A stretch of DNA of 38,677 bases from a virus. The stretch spans positions 1-38,677 of IMG/VR virus record IMGVR_UViG_3300007229_000022, one strand, 5' to 3'. This document shows, piece after piece, positions 8,413-38,677 of this stretch. The translations under genes were made by a program, and so were the position numbers. How positions within the stretch are numbered: the first letter of the stretch is position 1; every line of letters begins with the position of its first letter. The notes below the pieces were generated by a model. It saw only the letters and a list, made by a program, of their open reading frames with translations, was not told the DNA's origin and ran no database searches.

Positions 8413-9228
8413 TTACTTCCAGTAGTGTTGTCCTTCTTCAACTATTTTTAGTTCTTCTTTTCTTGGTAGAGCGCCTACAATTTCTGTTAGCTTTCTTTTT
8501 TGTCTCCAAGATTTGAACACAGAGTCTTTGTTTGTTTCTAACAATAACTCTCTGAATTTATCAGAAGTGTTGTTAGATATGATTGGATAATCCATTACTG
8601 GAAAAGCCAAACCATTGTCCACGATTGTGTAGACTGACTTGACGCCATGCGTGGTTTCTTTTGATGTGTTAGCAATGCAACTACCTAGCTTGTTACCTAC
8701 AAGTTTAAGTGATTTCCCTTGGTTAGTAAACATAACATCAATGTCACCGCCAGTTATAGCATTGTATAATGCCCCTGAATTTTTATATCTTAGATAAACA
8801 ACTTCTTTACCTAATTTTTTAAAAACAGCATCAGAGAACTTTTGGTTCATGTTTTTATCTAGGCCAACGATAAGTTTATCTTTTCCTTTTGCTTCGTTGC
8901 TCATACACCAGTAGTAGGGTGCCGAGTATTCACGTAACACAAAGTTTTTCTTAGTTATAAAATAACCCATTTGTGCCGGTTGATTACTAGCAAACATTAT
9001 GATAACATTTTCTTTGCCTCTTGTCTTCTCAAGATATTTTGTTGCTTCGGTCATAGCTGAAATGTTTTCAAACTTGACTGAGTGTCCATTTTTCTTAAGC
9101 ACTTCTTGATACATCGTTGCTCTAGCAAAACTAGACCCACCTGGTTTACCAGCTGGTACGATTGTTATTTCCTCTGCGTAACTTGCCGTAGCGAATAGTA
9201 AAGTTACTAGTACTATTAGTTTTTTCAC
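8413..9228 (-). CDS. tctC: TctC/Bug-type periplasmic solute-binding protein
   Basis: It starts with GTG after AAGGAGAC and has a signal peptide (MKKLIVLVTLLFATASYA). The mature protein has the type II binding-protein layout of tripartite tricarboxylate transporter receptors: an opening strand and Gly loop (ITIVPAGKPGGSSFARA), a middle ITGGDIDVMFTNQG, and a C-terminal helical part. At 271 residues it is shorter than usual (about 300) and divergent, so the ligand could differ from citrate. It lies 25 nt behind a tctA gene, which fixes the family. It captures a carboxylate-like ligand in the periplasm and hands it to TctA. Confidence 0.75.
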   Translation of the reverse strand: MKKLIVLVTLLFATASYAEEITIVPAGKPGGSSFARATMYQEVLKKNGHSVKFENISAMTEATKYLEKTRGKENVIIMFASNQPAQMGYFITKKNFVLREYSAPYYWCMSNEAKGKDKLIVGLDKNMNQKFSDAVFKKLGKEVVYLRYKNSGALYNAITGGDIDVMFTNQGKSLKLVGNKLGSCIANTSKETTHGVKSVYTIVDNGLAFPVMDYPIISNNTSDKFRELLLETNKDSVFKSWRQKRKLTEIVGALPRKEELKIVEEGQHYWK

Positions 9229-9253
9229 GTTTGTCTCCTTGTTTTAGTTTTTG

Positions 9254-10588
9254 TTAGTGAGTCCATAGTGTTAGATACCTAAGAATGACGAACTCTAAAT
9301 CACTCCCAAGTATAAAAGAGAATAAAACTGGTGTTAGATTTATCTCTTTCAATGTTATTGCTATTGTAGCAAATATGACCAAACACGTCAAGTAAAGATC
9401 TAGTTGATAATCATCAAGCCCCAACCAAACACACGTGGAAATACACACTAATGCAATAAAAATGTTTAAAAATTTTTTCATCTTCTGTAGAAGAACAATT
9501 ATTGTTTTTGCCAAAGGCCAAGCAATTATTAATGCAACACAGTTCACAAAGACAAACCATGGCACCAGTGTTTTCATTAAAATTAAAGCATTGTTTTCTA
9601 AATTTGCAAATTGAAAAGGCGACCATCCAGCCTCCAACAAATAATTAAACAGAATAAATTCACTAGAGGTTAACGGAATGCCAAGTAACACAAGTGGCAA
9701 CAGCATTCCAAAACCACCACTGTTGTTGGCAGTTTCTGCCGCAACAATCTTCTTGCTAGGATAGTTGGGATTTAATTTCGATTCAAGAGCATAAGACAGA
9801 TTGGTACTTAGGAGTGTGCCAAAACCCGGAGCCATTGCTGAAAAAAATCCAATCACTGCTCCTCTGAAACTTGAAGTTATGTTTCTAAAAAATAAAAAAA
9901 GCACCTTTTTAAAAGATGTTAATTTTTCTTTGACAAAAGTTACTTTTATGTCTTTTTGCATTGCGGCAAATAGAGTTGGAGCCACAATCACACCAAGAAT
10001 TAAAGGATAAAAAGGTATCCCGTGTTCTAGCTGTTCGATTCCAAGAGTGTATCTATATGTGCCGGCTTGATAAGCTGGTCCAATGAGTGACAGGCAGTAA
10101 CCCACCAATAGCAATGAACAGTTCAACAGATACCTTTTTTTGTTGAAAGCAAACATACTGGCCAATAAAACAATACCGTATAATGTTATTCTAAAATTAT
10201 CTTTTAAGAATATTTGGAAAGAATCCATGACATAAGGTAAAGCAAGGTAAGTTATAGCAACCGCAACAAAACTACCAAACAAACTGCCAACGGCACATAG
10301 ACCAATAGCCGCACTGCTTAAATTTCTTTTTCTAAATTTGGCTCCTTCAAGCAAGGCTGGCATGCTGTTACTTTCACCAGGAACTTGCATAAACACGCTG
10401 GGTATGGTTCCGGTATACTGTGCTGTACTCAATATGGCCATGTAGAACAAAAATAGTTGTGGCACATCTAATTGAAGTAAAATTGGCACTGATAAGATAA
10501 GACTGATACTGGTTCCTATACCAGGCAAAATGCCTGATATGGTTCCTATCAAAATTCCGGTCAATACTACAATAAGTTGCTCTAACAT
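9254..10588 (-). CDS. tctA: TctA, large membrane subunit of a tripartite tricarboxylate transporter
   Basis: A 444-residue multi-pass membrane protein (about ten hydrophobic segments) with the family's internal duplication. The first repeat has SGILPGIGTSIS at 18-29 and VPGESNS at 69-75; the second has MAPGFGTLLS at 252-261, then AAETANNSGGFGMLLP at 283-298 and LGIPLTSS. These are the LPG and AAPExANN signatures of TctA. It forms the sodium- or proton-driven channel. It is shorter than the common length of about 500, mainly at the C-terminus. No tctB gene is present in this operon. It starts directly after the stop of the oxygenase gene upstream. Confidence 0.85.
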   Translation of the reverse strand: MLEQLIVVLTGILIGTISGILPGIGTSISLILSVPILLQLDVPQLFLFYMAILSTAQYTGTIPSVFMQVPGESNSMPALLEGAKFRKRNLSSAAIGLCAVGSLFGSFVAVAITYLALPYVMDSFQIFLKDNFRITLYGIVLLASMFAFNKKRYLLNCSLLLVGYCLSLIGPAYQAGTYRYTLGIEQLEHGIPFYPLILGVIVAPTLFAAMQKDIKVTFVKEKLTSFKKVLFLFFRNITSSFRGAVIGFFSAMAPGFGTLLSTNLSYALESKLNPNYPSKKIVAAETANNSGGFGMLLPLVLLGIPLTSSEFILFNYLLEAGWSPFQFANLENNALILMKTLVPWFVFVNCVALIIAWPLAKTIIVLLQKMKKFLNIFIALVCISTCVWLGLDDYQLDLYLTCLVIFATIAITLKEINLTPVLFSFILGSDLEFVILRYLTLWTH

Positions 10589-16210: not shown

Positions 16211-16235
16211 TGTATTATTATTTAAATTGTTATAG

Positions 16236-16263
16236 GAAAAAATTAAGTGCTACTATGATAGTA
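16236..16263 (-). terminator. Probable tmRNA terminator
   Basis: TACTA-TCA-TAGTA hairpin followed within 12 nt by AATTTTTT in transcript direction. The stem is short, so the exact 3' end of the coding piece is uncertain. Confidence 0.5.
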
Positions 16264-16570
16264 ATACTGCAACTTTTCTGTTGCGAGGAAAGTTGCCAAC
16301 CCCAGAGTTTAGTGGACTAGGCCGCTAATCTCAATTCAGATCTGCTTGTTGGCATTGCTACCAAGTCAGCAAATCTTAATGCTTTTTTGTTTGCATTTAA
16401 AAACTGGCCGTTACCTCGTACCATTGGAAGCTCTCCACAAACTTTTAGACGTCAATCGATACCATTACACCCCCGAAAGGGATTACATAAGCCACCCGCC
16501 TAGTCATGGTGGAGGTGACCGGAGTCGAACCGGTGTCTTGCCCGTTTATTACTTTTGCTTCAACGAACTT
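16250..16570 (-). ncRNA. ssrA: Two-piece (circularly permuted) tmRNA
   Basis: The acceptor piece comes first. It contains a T-arm ACCGG-TTCGACT-CCGGT (16534-16518), the acceptor strand CACCTCC (16517-16511), discriminator A and an encoded CCA ending at 16507. After a spacer of about 32 nt the coding piece starts with GGGGGTG (16474-16468), which pairs with CACCTCC to give a seven-pair acceptor stem with G3-U70, the alanine identity pair. The D-region GGTATCGATTGACG follows, then a resume codon in GCAAAC at 16394 and a tag frame ending at TAG. A hairpin GCAACTTT/AAAGTTGC follows the tag. The order is the permuted alphaproteobacterial type. It rescues stalled ribosomes and tags their products. 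The 5' end of the acceptor piece and the 3' end are approximate. Confidence 0.93.
16317..16394 (-). other. tmRNA tag-peptide reading frame, 25 residues
   Basis: From the resume codon GCA at 16394 the frame reads ANKKALRFAD..., ends ...SELRLAA and stops at TAG (16319-16317). With the charged Ala the tag is 26 residues, longer than the 10-15 of many bacteria. The terminal LAA is the element ClpX recognises in ssrA tags, and a phage clpX lies in this window. The initial ANKK and final LAA fit standard tag design. Confidence 0.9.
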
Positions 16571-16576
16571 AACAGT

Positions 16577-16605
16577 ATTTAAACACAGGTTGACCAAAAA
16601 GTCAA
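16577..16605 (-). promoter_or_regulatory. tmRNA promoter, TTGACT-N17-TTAAAT
   Basis: -35 TTGACT at 16605-16600, 17-nt spacer, -10 TTAAAT at 16582-16577, start near 16570. Its -35 lies inside the spacer of the opposite + strand promoter. Confidence 0.6.
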
Positions 16606-16618
16606 ACTGTATTATAAT
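16590..16618 (+). promoter_or_regulatory. Promoter of the bL12 operon, TTGACC-N17-TATAAT
   Basis: -35 TTGACC at 16590-16595, 17-nt spacer, perfect -10 TATAAT at 16613-16618. Start predicted near 16625, within a base of the ATG at 16624. It interleaves with the tmRNA promoter; the two -35 boxes form the inverted repeat TTGAC...GTCAA. Confidence 0.8.
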
Positions 16619-16623
16619 GAATT

Positions 16624-16893
16624 ATGGACGCAGAAAAACAACAAATACAAAAAGCATTTCAACCATTAATAGACGCAAAAGGTAGACGTAAACTTTCAAT
16701 GAGAATTACTGATCTGAAAGAATATGATGAGACTAAAGAGGGATTGTCTTTTAAAAAGATCATTAAAAGCATTCAATCTGGTTTACCAAAAGGCACAACA
16801 GAAGTAAGTGTTGAGTACACAAATAGGAAAGGCCAAAAGATTGAGAGAATGGTCAAAGTTCCTATTGGACGTAAAAAGAAGCTTTCTAGATAA
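16624..16893 (+). CDS. Unknown basic protein, 89 aa, first gene of the bL12 operon
   Basis: Reads MDAEKQQIQKAFQPLIDAKGRRKLSMRITDLKEYDETK..., then GLPKGTTEVSVEYTNRKGQKIERMVKVPIGRKKKLSR. The basic C-terminus suggests RNA or ribosome contact. The ATG lies 5 nt after the -10 box, so the message would be leaderless or nearly so; the next in-frame ATG (codon 25) would truncate the protein. Not recognised. It may be a translation-related partner because the operon ends in bL12. Confidence 0.65.
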   Translation: MDAEKQQIQKAFQPLIDAKGRRKLSMRITDLKEYDETKEGLSFKKIIKSIQSGLPKGTTEVSVEYTNRKGQKIERMVKVPIGRKKKLSR

Positions 16894-36315: not shown

Positions 36316-37004
36316 TATACTTTAATTATATTGTTTGGTTTAGCTAGTAGTTTGTAAGTGAGTTCTGTTGCGACGCCGGTTACTAATAAATTCGATCTTG
36401 GTCCTTGTCCTGCGTTTGCTGTGCAGTGTGGAACGTTGTACCAATCAAAGGTGTAAATTTCTCCTGCTCTATATCCTGCAAGAAAGTGATTGCCAAACTG
36501 CATGAAGTGTCCTGGTTGCCAATCTTCTAACATGACGAAGAATCTATATACGCTGTCGATGTTGTCCGGATTCCATCTTTGCACAGCATCTATGTGTGTT
36601 GTCCAAACCTGTGTTGGCCATTGCACATGAACACGTGCTTGTATATCACGTTCGCCTGCTGTCAAGTGTAATGCATCTGCCATTCTCTGGAAAACAGGTA
36701 AAAGGTCGTAATCCATGTTGCCAATTGGATGTTTAGGGTCACCACCTACTCTTGCGATGTCTCTTTCCTCGGCTTCTATGTCTATGCTACTGCCTTGTTC
36801 AGTGTACTCGCTTTTGTCGTTTGGATTTCTTGTTCTCCAAGTAACTTCCTTACTTCGTTCTTGCGTTAATTTTAATTCATTACTCCAGTCTCCCTCAAAC
36901 CTACCCACGTACTTCATTGTATCATGGGCAGGGCTGTGGTCAAAAGGATCAAAATGATAAGATGATCTTTTCTTCAATATGTCGAACTTGCTTTTATTTT
37001 TCAT
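36315..37004 (-). CDS. 2-oxoglutarate/Fe(II)-dependent oxygenase-like protein (third paralogue)
   Basis: The metal site is visible as HID at 137-139, His193 in WYNVPHCTANAGQ, and Arg203. The region RFFVMLEDWQPGHFMQFGNHFLAGYRAGEIYTFDWYNVPH aligns with the 10589 and 11262 proteins. The N-terminal half is longer and different. It follows tctC with an 11-nt overlap, so this locus repeats the oxygenase-transporter association of the first. Confidence 0.75.
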   Translation of the reverse strand: MKNKSKFDILKKRSSYHFDPFDHSPAHDTMKYVGRFEGDWSNELKLTQERSKEVTWRTRNPNDKSEYTEQGSSIDIEAEERDIARVGGDPKHPIGNMDYDLLPVFQRMADALHLTAGERDIQARVHVQWPTQVWTTHIDAVQRWNPDNIDSVYRFFVMLEDWQPGHFMQFGNHFLAGYRAGEIYTFDWYNVPHCTANAGQGPRSNLLVTGVATELTYKLLAKPNNIIKV

Positions 37005-38052
37005 TAACAATATTTACTTTGTAGACCACCTCGTGTCCTAAAGCATCTTTTGTGAAATCAATTAACGTTCTGTAGGCATCTTCAGTGACCAACGACATAA
37101 CAACATCTAAGTGTCTGTTGCCATCTTCACCAATTGTCCATCCATAGTTTCCTATCTTCTTCTGAATCGCTTTGACGCTATCTGGATTGTTTGCCACCTG
37201 TGTCAATGCATTTCTTAAAGTTTCTGCGTGTTTAGATCCTTTACTAATAAAGATTGCTTTTTGTATTCCATCACGCACAGACTTGACTAACTTATATGCA
37301 TTATAGAAGTCCCCACTAGGTGCAACGCCCCACTTGTTTTCAAAAACAGTTTCGAATTTATATCCTGGAAAGTTTAGATCATCTTTGTGTCGTCCTGTTT
37401 CAGCATCAAGTATTCCATGATGGAACCATATTTCTGCTGTGCCTTCTTCTATCACAGGTTTGATGTGTTTCTTGAAAGCGGCAGGGTTCTCACGTGAGCC
37501 TGTGGTCTCTCCTCTTTTAAAGGTTAGACGGAATTCATTCTGTTTCATTCCGGGTACCCAAGTTACTTTATCTCTGAAACAATCCTTGTACTGGTCAACT
37601 GTCATGTCAGGTCCACACATCAGCATAGCAATAGCAAATGCCTCGGGTGCGTGTCCTAGTCCTTTTGGAAACACTGTGCCATCTGTGCCTGTTCTCTTTG
37701 CGACCACTATGTTTAAATTCATTATTCCTATTGCATCATATTTGTAGTCATAGACCACTTTTGGATTAGTTAGGTACTTGATTGCGTTACCACCACTGGT
37801 GGCTAACATAACTGTATCGTCCTGTTGCAGACTAGTGTGCCATTCATTTGCACCTATGATGTTCCCCTTACCTGGCAAGTGTTTTAATATTATCTCACCA
37901 TCAAGGTACTTGTTCATCTCAGTAGCCACTATTTGACTCCAAACACTCAACCCGCTACCCGGCTTGTTTGGCACAACCAATGTGTATTTTTCTGCCAGTG
38001 TTGCTGTGGTAAACCCTAGCGTCACCAACAATGCTATTATTATTTTCTTCAT
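36994..38052 (-). CDS. tctC: TctC/Bug-type periplasmic solute-binding protein, second copy
   Basis: Signal peptide MKKIIIALLVTLGFTTATLA, then the receptor opening KYTLVVPNKPGSGLSVWSQIVATEM and LPGKGNIIGANEW, equal to the ligand-binding loops of TctC proteins. The mature length of about 330 is slightly above the usual. The middle (FKRGETTGSRENPAAF) is divergent, so ligand specificity probably differs from the 8413 copy. Follows the partial tctA gene by 14 nt. Confidence 0.85.
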   Translation of the reverse strand: MKKIIIALLVTLGFTTATLAEKYTLVVPNKPGSGLSVWSQIVATEMNKYLDGEIILKHLPGKGNIIGANEWHTSLQQDDTVMLATSGGNAIKYLTNPKVVYDYKYDAIGIMNLNIVVAKRTGTDGTVFPKGLGHAPEAFAIAMLMCGPDMTVDQYKDCFRDKVTWVPGMKQNEFRLTFKRGETTGSRENPAAFKKHIKPVIEEGTAEIWFHHGILDAETGRHKDDLNFPGYKFETVFENKWGVAPSGDFYNAYKLVKSVRDGIQKAIFISKGSKHAETLRNALTQVANNPDSVKAIQKKIGNYGWTIGEDGNRHLDVVMSLVTEDAYRTLIDFTKDALGHEVVYKVNIVNEK

Positions 38053-38066
38053 GTTATCATTTCTCT

Positions 38067-38677
38067 TTATGCATATTCTAGTTTGTTTTTTTTTGTTATG
38101 CTGTATCCAAATAGTAAAACTACCAGCGCCATTAAGAATATGAATAATGGTCTATCAATAAGTTTGTCTATAGTATACAGCGAATTCATTTGCATTGTCA
38201 ACGTTTCTACCTTGCCGGCAAGTATAAATGCCATCAGCATGGCAGGCCTGCTGAACTTGTACTTCTTGGCCAATAATCCTAGCATAGTACACATTATCAA
38301 AATTATGTAATCTTCTATGCCTCCTGTGTGTTGTACACTTGCCCACACGATGAAAGCGATTATCACAGGAAAGTAATACTTGTAAGGCACATAGGTAATC
38401 TTTGCTATGTGCTTGTTGAACATCAAACATAGGACACCTACTATAACTGTTGCCCACATAAAACCAAATGTCAAACTGGTGAAAAATTTTTTATCTTGTG
38501 CCAACTCAGGTGTGCCAAGTTCAAATCCCAAGTACATGAACAGTGCCATCAGCACCGCGGCAAAACTTGCACCAGGAATACCAAACAACACAGTCGGAAT
38601 CATGCTGGTAGCCTTTTGGGCATTGTTGGCACCCTCAGGACCAATGACTCCCTTTATGTTGCCGTTGCCAAATTTTT
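38067..38677 (-). CDS. tctA: TctA, second copy, C-terminal part (cut by window edge)
   Basis: The visible frame begins at the edge with FGNGNIKGVIGPEGANNA, then MIPTVLFGIPGAS: the PExANN and GIPG signatures of the second TctA repeat. Further hydrophobic helices follow (FTSLTFGFMWATVIVGVLCL, YYFPVIIAFIVWA, YIILIMCTMLGLLA, FIFLMALVVLLFG). The ATG at 38603 is internal to this frame. The N-terminal half lies beyond the edge. It is a separate gene from the 9254 copy, with clearly different sequence. Confidence 0.9.
   Translation of the reverse strand, partial: KFGNGNIKGVIGPEGANNAQKATSMIPTVLFGIPGASFAAVLMALFMYLGFELGTPELAQDKKFFTSLTFGFMWATVIVGVLCLMFNKHIAKITYVPYKYYFPVIIAFIVWASVQHTGGIEDYIILIMCTMLGLLAKKYKFSRPAMLMAFILAGKVETLTMQMNSLYTIDKLIDRPLFIFLMALVVLLFGYSITKKNKLEYA

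Follow-up and report, generated by a model that had tools for sequence, protein, structure and literature searches.

The window, by which we mean the whole 38,677-base viral record analysed here, contains a single tmRNA gene, which ARAGORN called in the permuted form on the minus strand (16602-16226) with a tag read as ANKKALRFADLVAMPTSRSELRLAA followed by a stop. Two Rfam models matched the same region, both scores being judged against the curated cut-offs: tmRNA_permuted (RF04321) at 16569-16362, with 92 bits for a cut-off of 47 (E 1.1e-16, model positions 1-213), and alpha_tmRNA (RF01849) at 16609-16266, with 57.6 bits for a cut-off of 50. The latter search had been proposed in a preliminary description of this DNA, which had recognised a T-arm, an encoded CCA, a seven-pair acceptor stem with G3-U70, a GCAAAC resume site and a 25-codon frame ending in RLAA and a stop, all in permuted order. 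Each of these elements was found to be present; the strand and limits were corrected to the minus strand and to the ARAGORN call. The features of the locus are collected in Table 1.

Table 1. Coordinates of the tmRNA gene, its parts and the associated genes in the window.
Feature	Position	Strand	Basis
Permuted (two-piece) tmRNA gene	16226..16602	-	ARAGORN limits, Rfam, covariation in 17 copies
Conserved tmRNA core	16362-16569	-	
Helices joining the two pieces, 5' strands	16536..16569	-	15/17 pairs changed on both sides
T-arm ACCGG-TTCGACT-CCGGT	16518..16534	-	stem covaries in 4/5 pairs
3' acceptor strand CACCTCC (16517-16511), discriminator A and encoded CCA	16507..16517	-	
Intervening segment, 32 bases	16475..16506	-	permuted order in Rfam alignment
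5' acceptor strand GGGGGTG	16468..16474	-	pairs with CACCTCC, G3-U70
Tag reading frame ANKKALRFADLVAMPTSRSELRLAA, 25 codons and TAG (TAG 16319-16317)	16317..16394	-	ARAGORN, alignment
Pseudoknot stem after the tag, CAACTT...AAGTTG (less certain)	16270..16295	-	64% pairing in this alignment
Phage ClpX, N-terminal 106 aa, cut by the contig end	3..320	-	Pfam zf-C4_ClpX 1.5e-12
Sigma70-like promoter TTGACT-17-TTAAAT, directly before the first helix (about 16569)	16577..16605	-	by eye
Small divergent gene, 89 aa, promoter region in common with the tmRNA	16624..16893	+	homologues in relatives
Ribosomal protein L7/L12	16995..17393	+	Pfam Ribosomal_L12 2.6e-25, Ribosomal_L12_N 3.1e-11

Architecture of the permuted tmRNA gene

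The alignment and the coordinates place the T-arm, the 3' acceptor strand and the CCA ahead of the 5' acceptor strand and the tag. The acceptor stem of seven pairs, G3-U70 included, is built from two separated segments, and the segment between them is expected to be cut out during maturation into two pieces. The tag begins at the resume site TAAAT-GCAAAC at 16394. It was noted that the 5' end given by ARAGORN probably falls inside the promoter, the first helix beginning at 16569. The pseudoknot that follows the tag has partial support, with 93% and 64% of cells paired in the alignment, and the pseudoknot before the tag was inspected by eye only. The T-loop of the window tmRNA is UUCGACU and not the alphaproteobacterial type GGCRGUA, which is typical, though not strictly defining, of alpha_tmRNA.

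Conservation of structure and tag frame across viral copies

We aligned 17 viral copies, comprising the window and 16 others with a like tag; the tag start given by ARAGORN was wrong in two of them and was put right by the alignment. Among the structure cells, 92.5% were paired, compared with 71.6% after shuffling and 36-54% when the partner was slid by 1-3 columns. Cells changed on both sides numbered 144, compared with 48.9 in the shuffles and 5-29 with slid partners, and the covariation score was 0.603 (0.205 shuffled; at most 0.139 slid), with double changes in 26 of 40 pairs spanning both pieces. Joining helices 1-3 were paired in 94-100% of cells and had double changes in 15 of their 17 pairs. 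The acceptor stem was fully paired (100%), and G3-U70 was invariant in all 17 copies while the adjoining pairs swapped; in three copies CACCTCC/GGGGGTG was replaced by CCACTCC/GGGGTGG with G3-U70 kept.

The tag frame was open in 17/17 copies over 22-25 codons, while the two shifted frames closed early. Synonymous change in the tag frame reached 52% for an expectation of 26%; the shifted frames gave 25% and 16%. The tags start with AN(K/R)(K/R)AL(G/R)FAD and end with (L/M)RLAA, giving the overall form ANKKAL...ELRLAA; the Ala resume codon and the RLAA end are conserved, and a 9-base indel within the tag is in frame. On these comparisons, the tmRNA gene and its reading frame are both maintained, beyond what chance would give. 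The earlier proposal that the phage bears a permuted tmRNA of alpha type whose tag is long was upheld by ARAGORN, by the two Rfam models, by covariation and by selection on the tag frame.

The conserved tag frame also bears on whether the RNA could be a decoy or inhibitor that mainly ties up host SmpB or competes with the tmRNA of the host, blocking host trans-translation whatever the tag encodes. A phage tmRNA reduced to the tRNA-like domain (DS6A) has been described, as has inhibition of tmRNA by a molecule of similar kind (PMC4131195; PMC11915505); a further point in favour is that no phage SmpB was found in 29 viral records. Such a molecule would not need a tag frame, however, and here the frame is open in every copy, is under purifying selection and keeps its Ala resume codon and RLAA end, so that we regard a decoy as improbable.

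It was also observed that the T-loop varies within one tmRNA clade, with the alpha-type GGCAGTA, the canonical TTCRANT and TGCAATT all represented (L205, L206, L209 and L213 compared with the window and others). This switching looks as if T-arms had been exchanged.

Promoter and neighboring genes

The minus-strand promoter of the window was identified by eye and appeared weaker than those of its relatives, of which L205, L207 and L210 have TTGACA-17-TATAAT at the aligned position. A consensus promoter scan of the window did not list this minus-strand site; it listed the plus-strand site TTGACC-17-TATAAT (16590-16618), which faces the small divergent gene. Only 6 bases separate the end of this promoter-like site from the ATG of the small gene, so transcription of the gene may begin at or close to that ATG and give a leaderless mRNA. 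An inverted repeat, TTGAC-N6-GTCAA, brings the -35 boxes of both divergent promoters close together, in the relatives as well. Of 16 relative loci, 15 had a homologue of the small gene, in most cases adjoining the tmRNA.

The true start of the L7/L12 gene is likely at about 17028. In four records (the window, L002, L017 and L159) L7/L12 adjoins the tmRNA, the two genes being divergent and about 0.4-0.6 kb apart. Other arrangements were encountered as well. Three loci (L228, L229 and L230, in records L013-L015) have a close L7/L12 and a ClpP-like protease about 10 kb off, with no permuted tmRNA detected. The short tag ANESYALAA was found in a viral contig with L7/L12 and in the second tmRNA of a marine alphaproteobacterial MAG (L217 and L298); the copy in the MAG may be phage DNA.

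Viral lineage, probable host and origin of the tmRNA

Among the products of the contig are tail-spike, PAAR, exonuclease and virion proteins, as well as a class I ribonucleotide reductase. By protein, its nearest cultured relatives are the pelagimyophages HTVC008M and Mosig and T4-like cyanophages, with about 40% identity in one marker and 69-73% in NrdA. From these proteins we classify the contig as a marine T4-like myophage distantly related to HTVC008M and Mosig, and the carrier of the tmRNA belongs to an undescribed viral lineage. Because the protein relatives are pelagimyophages, and because L7/L12 points likewise, its nearest cellular relatives being mostly uncultured marine Alphaproteobacteria (47-51% identity), the host is probably a marine alphaproteobacterium such as SAR11. 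Two genes of the tripartite tricarboxylate transporter family (TctA) were also noted on the minus strand, in regions 8413-10588 and 36994-38675, each with a possible substrate-binding protein gene downstream; the contig end truncates the second TctA. These regions are probable metabolic cargo of the phage.

The order sampled through the L7/L12 relatives, which we take to be SAR11 represented by single-cell genomes, mostly carries permuted tmRNA (115/150 and 84/100 genomes in two overlapping samples). These copies are like the phage copies in gene order, G3-U70 stem, joining helix, resume site and post-tag GCAACAGAA, features of the alphaproteobacterial two-piece tmRNA (RF01849); they differ in tag length, T-loop type and clade. 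The SAR11-order tags are about 10 aa long (ANDNRLALAA, ANDNELALAA and AKNNQLALAA), and the phage-type tag was not found in any host among the SAR11-order copies read. The alpha-type T-loop was present in 47/47 SAR11-order copies and in 4/17 phage copies; the counts for the other viral tmRNAs are biased, those having been gathered by a pattern that selects canonical T-loops. In the tmRNA tree, which was built with the tag columns so that tags in common may help to hold the phage clade together, the phage copies formed one clade (SH-aLRT 98) and the SAR11-order copies a separate one (99), the two being united only by a loose group (92) that also takes in copies from other pelagic phages.

The suggested comparison with SAR11 ssrA thus recovered that loose group, along with separate clades, different tags and mostly different T-loops. 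The suggested acquisition from an alphaproteobacterial host stood as regards alphaproteobacterial affinity, whereas a recent SAR11 donor was not supported by tag, T-loop and tree. A host-like origin of the tag from the ANDNDSFADIRLAA group, with which FAD and RLAA are in common, was likewise rejected, the ANDNDSFADIRLAA copies lying far off in the tree. A DNA search of the phage collection with the window tmRNA gave no match, and one with the tmRNA of a relative gave short T-arm matches only, including 32 bases to Mosig. Taken on sequence grounds, the tmRNA appears to be an old phage-resident lineage of alphaproteobacterial affinity and not a recent SAR11 pick-up.

The same data make it very improbable that the gene is a passive passenger, that is, a recently captured host ssrA or an integration remnant with no function in the phage. 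It is true that ssrA genes are common integration sites and that fragments of them occur in prophages (PMC9004378). Against this stand compensatory change throughout a deep clade made up of phage copies alone, selection on the tag frame, a conserved promoter and the lack of any host with the phage-type tag among the SAR11-order copies read; provided that the alignment is right, the covariation already refutes such a reading.

Association with a phage ClpX lineage

The ClpX part in the window comprises the zinc-finger end only and shares 63-68% identity with its counterparts in 12 viral records, in which the phage ClpX is full-length. The 13 full-length relatives keep the Walker A/B motifs, the GYVG pore loop, the RKH loop and the (I/M)GF ClpP-docking loop, and one of the 12 nearest could be aligned over its whole length with solved ClpX structures. 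A permuted tmRNA was found in 12/12 records with the nearest ClpX relatives and also in the L017 record (G016), in which L7/L12, tmRNA and ClpX occur together, giving 13/13 in addition to the window. Among records with other phage ClpX, 5/42 had a permuted tmRNA (0/4 and 5/38 for more distant ClpX); the P value of this co-occurrence, below 1e-8, takes no account of relatedness and sets fragments of differing length against each other. Gene order differs: 11 records have ClpX upstream of the tmRNA and opposite to it, and three have it downstream with the same orientation. The ClpX copies of the tmRNA-bearing lineage form one clade apart from the other viral ClpX compared (SH-aLRT 99), so the association possibly reflects shared descent. 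Both the tmRNA and ClpX look like old phage genes. Two further ClpX-bearing phage genomes, of 160 and 340 kb, were noted to hold permuted tmRNAs (L342, 1467-1852; L343, 1470-1875) with long, odd tag calls, VKSKQPIKANEDSFVAERLAA and ANANTGEVTVSGKNVKFSARTAQRHSLAV, whose frame starts are putative.

ClpX was found in 0/18 further contigs with this tmRNA, for about 2.4 expected at the observed distance (P about 0.02), most of these contigs being too short on the relevant side. A constant company of ClpX with this tmRNA was therefore not supported, and probably some carriers are without ClpX or have it elsewhere. No ClpP was found in any record with this tmRNA; four viral records have ClpP, and permuted tmRNA was undetected there. 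Since no SmpB was found in the 29 records and no ClpP together with this tmRNA, both would be the host's. The SAR11-order host ClpX is 48-51% identical to the phage ClpX.

These distributions can also be read as real trans-translation in which the tag serves to recycle or remove particular host proteins, or in which release goes through host ClpXP alone, with the phage ClpX working elsewhere, for instance in remodelling during replication or assembly. Tag-directed turnover of host proteins has been proposed for phage Melnitz (PMC9004378), the contigs with no ClpX in reach suggest that the RNA may work without it, and the other phage ClpX lineages mostly have no detected permuted tmRNA. Every sampled member of the present ClpX lineage nonetheless has the tmRNA, across two gene orders, and we hold this separation of tag and phage ClpX to be possible but doubtful.

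Comparison with known systems

Two-piece tmRNA in marine phages was published in 2022 for Melnitz and Mosig, with about 53 phages flagged and roles suggested (PMC9004378). The tmRNAs of Methylophilales phage Melnitz and Pelagibacter phage Mosig are, like that of the window, phage-encoded and permuted, carried by a marine T4-like myophage at an early-promoter position, and of alphaproteobacterial affinity (PMC9004378). The Mosig tag, GEDNFALAA, differs from the 22-25 aa of the window clade, and Melnitz ssrA carries a glutamine riboswitch (PMC9004378), whereas an Rfam scan of the whole window (E up to 1) gave no match to a glnA-type riboswitch. Huge phages encode tmRNA, SmpB and L7/L12 (PMC7162821, in whose main text the terms clpX and clpP are absent), and there is a further precedent for phage bL12 (PMC6375957). 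To these precedents for tmRNA and L7/L12, the window adds their close divergent pairing and a ClpX in one genome. The ClpX proteins of the jumbo phages Bacillus phage G and Agrobacterium phage Atu_ph07 are full-length and 47% identical to the phage ClpX described here. As Bacillus phage G also carries ssrA (PMC4131195), phages that combine ClpX with tmRNA exist outside this clade too.

The phage two-piece tmRNA is thus known as a class, and what is new is the ANKKAL long-tag clade tied to a phage ClpX lineage. Neither this clade nor its ClpX link was found in the literature searched, a limited set with few subscription papers, which also contained nothing relevant on phage-encoded ClpX or on tmRNA with ClpX and SmpB in phage genomes.

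Proposed mechanism and implications

The sequence supports the architecture, the conserved pairing, a selected tag frame, a promoter motif and co-occurrence with a motif-complete ClpX. We consider it likely that the gene is a functional phage-borne ssrA, processed by the host, which would rescue stalled ribosomes and tag the resulting fragments for ClpX; from this evidence we infer that the RNA matures, is charged, rescues ribosomes and adds the tag, and that ClpX is its partner. A host-type sigma70 promoter would transcribe the permuted precursor, which host tRNA-processing enzymes would trim into two pieces held by the acceptor stem and the long joining helix. Host AlaRS would charge the tmRNA through G3-U70, and during infection host SmpB and EF-Tu would deliver it to ribosomes that have stalled on broken mRNA. 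Resuming on GCA, the ribosome would add a tag of 22-25 aa ending in (L/M)RLAA and terminate, which would free it for phage mRNAs.

The tagged fragment would be unfolded by ClpX, probably the phage ClpX on host ClpP where the former is encoded, and otherwise host ClpXP. For ClpX-bearing phages, phage ClpX with host ClpP would be the simplest reading, because the tag-gripping and ClpP-docking motifs are intact. The additional residues of the tag could extend its reach for engagement or evade host adaptors. We offer only tentatively the further idea of a self-made tag-and-destroy route distinct from the host tag, in which the long-tag tmRNA would work with a tag-recognizing phage ClpX, beside a phage L7/L12.

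If this is true, one phage encodes both a tag and its reading enzyme, as matching halves of trans-translation quality control, and the proteins released from stalled ribosomes in infected cells would pass through phage-specified quality control. The reason why phages carry tmRNA would become directly testable, be it ribosome recovery, the removal of toxic fragments or the control of host proteins. The long tags would also form a natural set with which to map the tag features that ClpX reads in addition to the final residues.
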